This document shows positions 58,622 through 60,483 of a DNA stretch of 64,000 nt, piece by piece (within the stretch, counting starts at the first letter, position 1; each line of letters opens with the position of its first letter). The DNA is from Saprospiraceae bacterium (GTDB taxonomy: Bacteria > Bacteroidota > Bacteroidia > Chitinophagales > Saprospiraceae). The position numbers were made by a program, and so were the translations under genes. Location of the stretch: positions 1 to 64,000 of the forward strand of contig JAQXDE010000066.1 in assembly GCA_029251525.1 (NCBI GenBank), written 5' to 3'. The notes under the pieces were generated by a model that ran no database searches, had not been told where the DNA came from, and saw only the letters and a program-made list of their open reading frames with translations.

Positions 58622-59146
58622 CTAATTGAAGGCAAATTTCTGAGCATACTTTTTTTCAATTTGATGTTTTAACTCTTTCCTAGCAAAAAATATTTTGCTT
58701 TTAACAGTTCCTATAGGAAGGTTGAATTTTTCTGCAATTTCTTGGTATTTATATCCCTCATAATGCATTAAAAACGGTACACGTAGACCTTCGTCTAAAT
58801 TTCCAATTATCTCTGTTAATTCATCCATCATTATGTTACTATCACCCTCGTTTGCTATTACATGTTTACCAGAATTAATATAGTAATTGTTATCAGTTGA
58901 ATCCATTATAACATTTGTTCTAACTTTTTTCCTGTAATCATTAATAAAAAGGTTTTTCATGATTGTGAAAACCCATGCTTTAAAGTTAGTTCCCGTTTGA
59001 AACTTGTTTTTGTAGGTTAGGGCACGGAAGGTAGTTTCTTGATATAAGTCTTTTGCTCTTTCCTTATCCTGAGTTAATTTGTAAGCAAATGCATTTAGCA
59101 TGTGGGAAAGTTGGTCATACTTTGATTGAAATTCTATAGTTGTCAT
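58622..59146 (-). CDS. ECF RNA polymerase sigma factor
   Basis: A 174-residue sigma-70 family protein with only regions 2 and 4. Region 2 (about 10-78) has DKERAKDLYQETTFRALTYK and FKAWVFTIMKNLFINDYRKK; region 4 (about 110-165) has LDEGLRVPFLMHYEGYKYQE and LPIGTVKSKIFFARKEL. It directs RNA polymerase to special promoters. No anti-sigma gene of the usual kind lies next to it; instead the divergent gene encodes a sigma region-2-like protein. It has its own terminator. Confidence 0.95.
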   Translation of the reverse strand: MTTIEFQSKYDQLSHMLNAFAYKLTQDKERAKDLYQETTFRALTYKNKFQTGTNFKAWVFTIMKNLFINDYRKKVRTNVIMDSTDNNYYINSGKHVIANEGDSNIMMDELTEIIGNLDEGLRVPFLMHYEGYKYQEIAEKFNLPIGTVKSKIFFARKELKHQIEKKYAQKFAFN

Positions 59147-59186
59147 CTTCTTTTTTTTATGGTATTAATGATTTAATATCTTGTTA

Positions 59187-59235
59187 TAAAGGTATATTTT
59201 TTGTTTAACAATAACAAAGAAAAGGTTAAACAAAA
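59187..59235 (-). promoter_or_regulatory. Sigma gene promoter flanked by an inverted repeat
   Basis: On the minus strand TTTG (rc of 59215-59218), 20 bases, then TACCTTTA (rc of 59187-59194), one mismatch from consensus. The repeat TTTTGTTTAAC (59199-59209) / GTTAAACAAAA (59225-59235), a perfect 11-bp dyad with a 15-bp spacer, overlaps the promoter, so it may be an operator or autoregulatory site. Confidence 0.45.
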
Positions 59236-59400
59236 TAAAAATATTTTTTTTGTCATCTATTTTAAATAGATTATTGTGAGGTATAAAGTGTTGTAAATCA
59301 GTTACTTATAACGTAAATGGTTTAAAATATTATTCTTTAAATTTTCATTGACTTTTGCAATTTTTAAACAAAAATACTTAGGTGACGTTGGTTTAATATT

Positions 59401-59637
59401 ATGAAGAACGAAATTTTTTTTCAAAATCTAAGTCAGAATCGAAGCCTTATACAAGAAATTGCAACAGAATTATCGAATGATTTTGTTATTGCACGTTTTC
59501 TTTATCGGGAGACAACTCATCAAGCAATGATGAACAAGGCCTTTCTAAACGAAGAGACTTTCAAGGAATGGCTGATAACAACTGTTAAAAGAATTTATTA
59601 CAAAATTTCACAAAATGAATATTCAACTAAAAACTAA
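59401..59637 (+). CDS. Stand-alone sigma region-2-like small protein
   Basis: A 78-residue protein. ATELSNDFVIARFLYRETTH and FKEWLITTVKRIYYKISQN align with AYKLTQDKERAKDLYQETTF and FKAWVFTIMKNLFINDYRKK in the ECF sigma encoded divergently 254 bases away. The shared pattern is L-x-x-D, A-x-x-LYxETT, and FKxW-x-x-T-x-x-K. The region-4 half is missing, and it ends soon after region 2. The overlap of 23 bases with the SRPBCC gene implies coupled translation. It may bind core polymerase or antagonise the sigma factor, but this is inference. Confidence 0.7.
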   Translation: MKNEIFFQNLSQNRSLIQEIATELSNDFVIARFLYRETTHQAMMNKAFLNEETFKEWLITTVKRIYYKISQNEYSTKN

Positions 59638-60055
59638 AGTTGATGGAAATTATAGAAAGATAATAAGGTTGTTCGATCGGAAACTTTTTGAAGCTTTGAA
59701 GCCTTCATACGGGAAAATGGAAATTGTTGAATTTACAGGTTCAAAAAAAGGAGATAGAGTGCACCTTAGGTTTTTGAGTCCATTCAAAACGGAGTGGATT
59801 AGTGAAATAACTGAAAATGGTGAAGATGAAAATCAGTCGTATTTTATTGACGAGGGAATAAAAGTTCCTTTTCCGTTAACTTCATGGAAGCACAAACATA
59901 TCGTCCAAAAAATCTCGGAAAATGAAAGTTACATAATAGATGATATGACCTTCAAGGGATTTGGTTTTTTGTTTACATTACTGTTATATCCAGCTCTTTA
60001 TATTGCATTTTATCCTAGAAAAAATATTTATAGAGCCTACTTCAAAGGCTTTTAA
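59615..60055 (+). CDS. SRPBCC-like ligand-binding protein
   Basis: A 146-residue protein of START/Bet-v-1 type: MEIVEFTGSKKGDRVHLRFL, WISEITENGEDENQSYFID and WKHKHIVQKISENESYIIDD are the beta-strand set seen in cyclase/dehydrase SRPBCC proteins of Bacteroidota. A hydrophobic C-terminal segment (FLFTLLLYPALYIAFYPRK) could reach the membrane. It is coupled to the sigma-like gene upstream and is 20 bases from the DUF2177 gene. It probably binds a lipid or pigment. Confidence 0.78.
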   Translation: MNIQLKTKVDGNYRKIIRLFDRKLFEALKPSYGKMEIVEFTGSKKGDRVHLRFLSPFKTEWISEITENGEDENQSYFIDEGIKVPFPLTSWKHKHIVQKISENESYIIDDMTFKGFGFLFTLLLYPALYIAFYPRKNIYRAYFKGF

Positions 60056-60075
60056 TTAAAAATAAAAATTTAAGA

Positions 60076-60483
60076 ATGAATACTGCTTTTTACTTAAAAT
60101 TATACGCCTTGACTGTACCAGTATTTTTCTTGATCGACCTAATCTGGCTTGGTTCATTAGCCAAAAAGTTTTACGGGAACAACATAGGTCATTTACTTTC
60201 TGATAAAGTAAACTGGAAAGCTGCATTGGCTTTTTATTTCATTTATATAATAGGAATTCTCTTTTACTCAGTTGTACCAACATTAGAAGATGGCGATTGG
60301 CAAAGAGCTTTTTTGTTAGGGAGTACTTTTGGTTTTTTTACCTACGCTACCTATGATTTAACTAATCTCGCTACATTAAAAAACTGGTCAATAAAAGTAG
60401 TTCTTGTTGATATAATTTGGGGTATGTTTCTTTGTGGATCAGTAGCAGCTGCAGCTTTTCAAATAGGGAAATGGTTGCTTTGA
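60076..60483 (+). CDS. DUF2177 family membrane protein
   Basis: A 135-residue protein with four membrane segments. The family marks are PVFFLIDLIWLGSLAKKFY, WKAALAFYFIYIIGILFYSV, GFFTYATYDLTNLATLKNWS and VVLVDIIWGMFLCGSVAAA. The function is unknown. It is the last gene of the three-gene cluster divergent from the ECF sigma gene. In other bacteria DUF2177 and SRPBCC genes turn up beside light- or singlet-oxygen-response genes, which I recall but cannot check here. Confidence 0.9.
   Translation: MNTAFYLKLYALTVPVFFLIDLIWLGSLAKKFYGNNIGHLLSDKVNWKAALAFYFIYIIGILFYSVVPTLEDGDWQRAFLLGSTFGFFTYATYDLTNLATLKNWSIKVVLVDIIWGMFLCGSVAAAAFQIGKWLL

Follow-up and report, generated by a model that had tools for sequence, protein, structure and literature searches.

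A conserved stand-alone homologue of sigma region 2, encoded divergently from an ECF sigma factor in Saprospiraceae, is a candidate sigma mimic

To our knowledge, only a few sigma mimics and split sigma factors are known, namely PhyR, RsoA and the phage pairs. In bacteriophage T4, the split sigma is made up of gp55 and gp33, the region-2 protein is separate from region 4, and the pair is active in phage late transcription. PhyR acts in the alphaproteobacterial general stress response. Its sigma-like domain has degenerate core- and promoter-interaction regions and acts as a decoy for the anti-sigma factor NepR; the phyR gene mostly lies divergent from nepR-ecfG, and its expression comes under the same response (PMC8103513). 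A second source divides PhyR into a sigma2-like part, a sigma4-like part and a receiver domain, and describes for CnrH-CnrY a sigma4 that is buried against sigma2 (PMC4598750). PMC8103513 also describes RsoA as the sigma2 part of the SigO-RsoA pair, and a table row of PMC10141391, where the domain order is reversed, lists RsoA with a value of 9.00, taken as kDa. Finally, light regulation of carotenoid genes through LitR-LitS-crtE is described in PMC12705666. Sigma mimicry by PhyR and the split sigma SigO-RsoA are already described in the open PMC literature. Within that literature, outside which most subscription papers lie, we found no account of a sigma2 protein that stands alone and has degenerate contacts, nor of a regulon defined by the palindrome described below.

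Here we analyze a locus in a 64,000-nucleotide stretch of DNA from a Saprospiraceae bacterium (contig JAQXDE010000066.1; hereafter the window), in which a 78-residue open reading frame (the 78-mer) is divergent from an ECF sigma factor gene (Table 1). Like PhyR, the 78-mer has a predicted sigma fold in which the residues expected to contact core polymerase and DNA are degenerate. Unlike PhyR, it consists of sigma2 alone, with neither a sigma4-like part nor a receiver domain (members of its family are 74-97 aa long), and no NepR-type partner was seen near it.

Table 1. Features of the divergent locus, in positions of the window.
Feature	Position	Strand	Evidence or context
ECF sigma factor (174 aa) with both region 2 and region 4	58622..59146	-	Sigma70_r2 3.1e-13, Sigma70_r4_2 1.3e-13
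Operator-like palindrome TGTTTAAC-N15-GTTAAACA	59202..59232		Between the two divergent genes; upstream of both starts, by 55 nt for the ECF and 168 nt for the 78-mer
Single half-site TTTAAACA	59363..59370		30 nt upstream of 78-mer start; identical in G004, two bases differ in G001
78-aa stand-alone sigma region-2 homologue (putative binding-dead sigma2 microprotein)	59401..59637	+	Homology, predicted fold, tree, residue counts
START/SRPBCC-fold protein (P0003), 146 aa	59615..60055	+	Start overlaps 78-mer by 23 nt; predicted fold
DUF2177 membrane protein	60076..60483	+	PF09945 5e-47

A homologue of sigma region 2 and its neighbours

The four open reading frames that a sequence-only reading had placed at this locus were all reproduced at the same positions, and the motifs that it had pointed out, LYxETT and FKxWxxTxxK, occur in register in both the 78-mer and the neighbouring ECF. 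The reading took the 78-mer for a sigma region-2 paralogue without region 4, and this holds: the C-terminal end of the protein falls after region 2, BLASTP aligns it with the divergent ECF at 5e-6 (33% over 52 residues), and a search of its own whole genome at E<=10 returned, besides this neighbour, only two matches, both ECFs. On the other side, the 78-mer alone gave zero Pfam matches at E<=10; of the 15 family members, 8 matched Sigma70_r2 at E<=1 (best 2.3e-7). Among NCBIfam models, SigY matched the 78-mer at 0.0036, far under its cut-off of 194 bits, and a profile built from ten relatives of the 78-mer matched sigma factors of known structure, with 5uxx_A as the best (8.1e-7).

The structure of the 78-mer alone was predicted by AlphaFold with a pLDDT of 94 and a pTM of 0.81. 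The model superposes on SigH region 2 (VIA Z 12.7, rmsd 1.2 over 76 residues) and also matches RpoE-NepR (5uxx, Z 12.2), PhyR-NepR (2lfw, Z 8.2) and the gp55-dependent complex 7d7c_F (Z 5.9), all values within the range, under about 13, in which a VIA Z for helical bundles may reflect a common arrangement. Because of this and because Foldseek gave weak E-values throughout (0.022 at best, none <=0.001), it is the sequence evidence that carries the homology. Measured against what defines an ECF, region-2 homology and the fold are present, and region 4 and the invariant Asp and Gln of AxDLxQE are absent. The 78-mer is a conserved gene and a homologue of sigma region 2, which confirms the observation made in the sequence-only reading; its interpretation is partly supported, as set out below.

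As described earlier, the divergent ECF lies on one side of the 78-mer and a co-oriented START-fold/DUF2177 pair on the other. The first gene of this pair had been called an SRPBCC gene. It does overlap the 78-mer, and its predicted START/SRPBCC fold agrees with that name (helix-grip fold, pLDDT 95; Foldseek best 5.9e-6, TM about 0.6), but Pfam and NCBIfam give no match to such a family, and the sole profile signal of the 146-aa protein is a sub-threshold AbbA match (0.046). Reading of the neighbouring open reading frames revealed no NepR-like or other anti-sigma gene, in keeping with the earlier remark that a classical one is missing. Among 100 relatives searched, close orthologues of the 78-mer in the same order (ECF / 78-mer / START-fold / DUF2177) were found in G004 (72%) and G001 (68%). 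The gene order expected from the earlier reading is kept in three of the five genomes of genus g1. In the three remaining genera that carry such a gene, we saw none of them next to an ECF. Two g1 genomes, G002 and G003 (the latter a 66% complete assembly), are without the 78-mer, a START-fold match and a close ECF orthologue and keep only 67-68% or more distant ECFs; therefore, the cassette seems to have been gained or lost as a unit.

One explanation for this arrangement is that the sigma2 fold has been co-opted: the 78-mer would be a small adaptor that partners the START-fold protein or serves a membrane process and plays no part on any sigma factor. The overlap of the two genes, by 23 nt in the window and G004 and by 17 nt in G001, favors such a recruitment, as do the only START-fold pairing found outside g1, in G616, where a homologue lies downstream of the stand-alone gene at a distance of about 62 nt, and the non-sigma context of the stand-alone genes in genus g34. 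However, of the 28 among the 100 relatives with a START-fold match, just four also carry a stand-alone gene, which in G037 lies at a different place in the genome; the START-fold gene does not adjoin the stand-alone gene in those g101 and g34 contexts that were read; and in three genera stand-alone genes share the palindrome with ECFs. We consider an adaptor without a sigma role unlikely and favor a sigma mimic that acts on the divergent ECF.

Spread of the stand-alone family and its residue changes

Stand-alone genes of the 78-mer kind, encoding 74-97 residues, were identified by a profile search in 15 or more of the 398 genomes of the bacterial family, a lower bound because the search scored just 14 first-look candidates per genome. 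They are distributed over four genera: nine of nine g34 genomes, two of two g101 genomes, three of five g1 genomes, and G616, the sole carrier among the eight g96 genomes listed. Every genome with a stand-alone gene is a draft assembly (G616 with 5% contamination). Matches at contig ends in G175 and G313 were left uncounted because they could be cut full-length ECFs, and weak short matches such as G020:C49 and G037:C120 are outside the counts. All 15-member counts exclude a 74-aa open reading frame in G049, in which LYQET is retained and whose long branch falls among the ECFs; this region-2-only frame (L112:4793-5017, G049:C372) has a 4-nt overlap with a gene that reads as patatin-like. In eight of nine g34 genomes the stand-alone gene lies, by reading, between acylase-like and MoxR-like genes; in G324, also of g34, the contig ends on one side of it. 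A search of genome_contigs gave four loci from Saprospiraceae MAGs and, in a Bacteroidaceae MAG, one match of 22 residues; in viral_contigs, nothing matched the peptide pattern of the family. In a region-2 tree of 106 rows, built by a quick method from 74 columns and containing long branches, the 15 stand-alones fell on one side of a branch with an SH-aLRT of 99.

The stand-alones were compared with 94 full-length reference ECFs, which are the distinct sequences among 140 phmmer matches and were mostly gathered by similarity to the stand-alones, so that they do not constitute a survey. D33 and Q36 of the AxDLxQE motif and Y70, the region-2.4 tyrosine, are present in 94 of 94 ECFs and in none of the 15 stand-alones. 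N53 and I67 are each kept in one stand-alone, N68 in three and K55 in five. On the other hand, F6, A21, L24, A31, L34 and Y35 are found in all 15, and E37 of the LYxET motif, T38, A42, W57 and M62 in 14. New constraints are also apparent at Q18 (15/15 stand-alones vs 15/94 ECFs) and K44 (14/15 vs 19/94), and a new residue, Q41, occurs in 12 of 15 stand-alones and in none of the 94 ECFs. The mean net charge of the region is still positive, at +2.5 compared with +4.4 in the ECFs. We take D33 and Q36 to correspond to sigma70 D403 and Q406 and to contact the beta' clamp helices, and N64-R71 to lie within region 2.3-2.4; the lost residues would be those that contact core polymerase and DNA. With these putative contact residues gone and fold residues retained, the 78-mer resembles a binding-dead sigma2, for which the PhyR sigma mimic is a nearer parallel than a core competitor or an RsoA-type split sigma. 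In region 2.4, however, the residues are only partly lost, with N64 kept in six and R71 in seven of the 15 stand-alones.

In the sequence-only reading, the truncated sigma was proposed to compete for core polymerase, or to bind the -10 element, as a sigma antagonist; on core polymerase it would occupy the beta' clamp and so competitively inhibit the ECF. The retained sigma2 fold, the presence of E37 in 14 of 15 members and the charge that is still positive (+2.5 vs +4.4) are in line with this proposal, but D33, Q36 and Y70 are gone from all 15 members, N53 and I67 from 14 each and N68 from 12, and among the stand-alones seen LYQET is kept only in the excluded outlier from G049. The loss of ECF-invariant residues speaks against competition for core and leaves the proposed mechanism, including binding of the -10 element, unsupported; we rate it as quite improbable. 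The 78-mer may yet be an antagonist by another route.

We think it very unlikely that the 78-mer provides region 2 of a two-subunit sigma factor like SigO-RsoA, with region 4 coming from a partner. The likeness is to RsoA of Bacillus subtilis, which is a separate region-2-only protein of similar size (PMC8103513, PMC10141391). RsoA and SigO start transcription together, however, whereas the 78-mer family has lost conserved residues that would be expected to face core and promoter DNA, and the neighbouring ECF already has a region 2 of its own. Among the PF08281 matches listed for four genomes, the weakest of which are outside the list, no region-4 partner of the 78-mer was recognized: the short frames were a 111-aa frame in G000, the second half of a broken ECF, and a 57-aa frame in G111, which may still be a candidate. 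Within the scope of these listed matches, a split sigma with such a partner was set aside. The T4 pair is represented by the gp55-dependent complex in the fold list of the 78-mer (above), but the T4 proteins form an active sigma, and the family pattern had no match in viral_contigs. Separately, we observed in G000 (L238:2709-3275, G000:C25) an ECF that is split into adjacent region-2 (76 aa) and region-4 (105 aa) frames, which is either a broken gene or an assembly error.

The stand-alone genes look to be under purifying selection, judging from dN/dS values of 0.075 and 0.090 in g1 (two of three pairs gave a value and the third was saturated), 0.081 in g101 (one pair) and 0.092 to 0.322 in g34 (13 of 36 pairs gave a value), all read against a dS that is high (1.1 to 4.0) or saturated. 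That the 78-mer is a decaying remnant of a duplicated ECF, as the absence of region 4 and the loss of key residues could suggest, is scarcely credible and was rejected, being contradicted by the dN/dS of 0.075-0.090 in g1, where measurable, and 0.081 in g101, and by a conserved length, new near-invariant residues and presence in nine of nine g34 genomes.

The palindrome and a CarH-like MerR protein

The operator-like palindrome in the divergent intergenic region (Table 1) is also present at the locus in G001 and G004, and in g1 it lies 167-168 nt from the 78-mer, nearer to the ECF. The single such site in the window, TGTTTAAC-N15-GTTAAACA, is read on both strands; 0.04 matches are expected by chance, and 1 of 100 shuffles reached 2. 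The half-site TTTAAACA may be a chance occurrence. Across eight genomes, the pattern TGTTTAAY-N12-17-TTAAACA was found 22 times in the forward and 25 times in the reverse direction (26 sites), vs 2 and 6 with a reversed-pattern control; the same contrast within the genome of the window alone was no more than 4+4 vs 2+2. Upstream of ECFs of the neighbour's family (n=92, those of the 94 with enough upstream DNA), the palindrome was often present, with 28 exact sites and 49 at one mismatch, vs means of 0.05 and 0.3 and maxima of 1 and 3, respectively, in dinucleotide shuffles. It also lies upstream of the stand-alone gene in two genera besides g1, at 27 nt in G616, 53 nt in G111 and 54 nt in G203. 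Within 300 nt upstream of the nine g34 stand-alones, no palindrome was found, either exact or with one mismatch. By eye, stand-alones of g34 (L111, L113, L114, L115, L116) share a different upstream block, in which a CACA-TTTTGTG-like palindrome is followed by a TCTATATACGTT-like sequence.

We read 23 of the 26 sites, leaving out G001:C389, G001:C501 and G004:C87. Sites are found at ECFs of the neighbour's family in g1, g101 and g96; in G000 and G004 there is also one at an ECF of a different kind. They also occur at crtI/crtB-like genes, in G001 as judged by Pfam (Amino_oxidase, SQS_PSY) and in G002 and G003 by reading, where the longest frame starts at the site; at a CarH-like MerR gene in G616; and at fasciclin-domain genes, identified by Pfam in G000 (L205) and by reading in G004, G203 and G616 (L211, L216, L218). 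In addition, one site (L209:3639-5427, G001:C344) is located between an ECF paralogue (64%) and a divergent rhodopsin gene; a gene that reads as bestrophin-like follows. The sites at G000:C14, G004:C21 and G002:C338 had no nameable gene link.

The candidate reader of the palindrome is the CarH-like MerR protein, because in g34 its gene adjoins the ECF in five of five genomes searched, four of which have a site at that ECF with no or one half-site mismatch, and because the palindrome lies upstream of the MerR protein's own gene in G616 and upstream of one of the two copies in G081. At those g1 and g101 loci that we read, the MerR gene has no site closer than about 1.5 kb even when two mismatches are allowed, which argues against autoregulation there. 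The MerR protein of G000 (L225, G000:C61:134230-135117) combines a MerR domain (MerR_1, 5.6e-15) with similarity across the B12-binding region, as expected of a CarH relative. It matches CarH itself at 1.9e-12 over residues 2-218 (5c8d), B12-binding_2 at 0.0002 (21.9 bits vs a cut-off of 23) and NF052513 at 1.1e-21 (77 bits vs a cut-off of 400). When aligned to CarH, however, it has Asn and Gln in place of two histidines that we take to be the cobalamin ligands, and both histidines are missing from the orthologues in all 11 genomes of the family in which both sites are readable (L221-L231). Both are kept in the G081 copies (L232, L234). G203 has a further paralogue (L235), encoded immediately upstream of a crtI-like gene, that also keeps both, and a paralogue in G616 (L236) keeps the first histidine. 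The CarH branch without cobalamin histidines is possibly B12-independent. The crt-like and rhodopsin neighbours suggest light as a possible signal, although the MerR protein is without the CarH cobalamin histidines. As in LitR-LitS and CarH regulation, the crt-like genes here may share one regulon with an ECF gene and a CarH relative of the MerR family; the MliR paper deals with a different MerR protein. The differences are that the MerR orthologues of this locus have neither cobalamin histidine (11/11) and that the available part of PMC12705666 mentions no sigma2 microprotein.

A proposed mode of action

Taken as a sigma mimic, the 78-mer probably acts by mimicry and not by transcription initiation. 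It would descend from an ECF of the neighbouring kind and would have given up the surfaces that face core RNA polymerase and promoter DNA, with the fold retained. It may then bind a partner that recognizes the sigma2 fold, for which an anti-sigma, region 4 of its own ECF and the START-fold protein are candidates, and this binding would adjust the output of the ECF encoded from the shared intergenic region, either as negative feedback or as an anti-anti-sigma effect. The proposal is based on predicted fold, homology, conservation, selection, residue loss and a palindrome common to three genera. Nevertheless, the link to an ECF is not universal, since none of the nine g34 stand-alones has the palindrome and their gene context is different. 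We give an even chance to the full explanation, in which a conserved sigma2-only family has lost its contact surfaces and a sigma mimic tunes the ECF of the same intergenic region. We are more tentative, and place our confidence somewhat below even, on whether a binding-dead sigma2 microprotein that stands free and shares a CarH-like operator with the ECF controls that ECF by mimicry with neither a receiver domain nor a split-sigma partner, and would as such be a new class of regulator.

If the proposal is true, sigma2 alone, with its polymerase and DNA faces erased, would be reusable as a signalling module and would provide a candidate layer of control for ECFs that have no linked anti-sigma. 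It would also tie a sigma2 microprotein to a carotenoid/CarH-like regulon in the Saprospiraceae.
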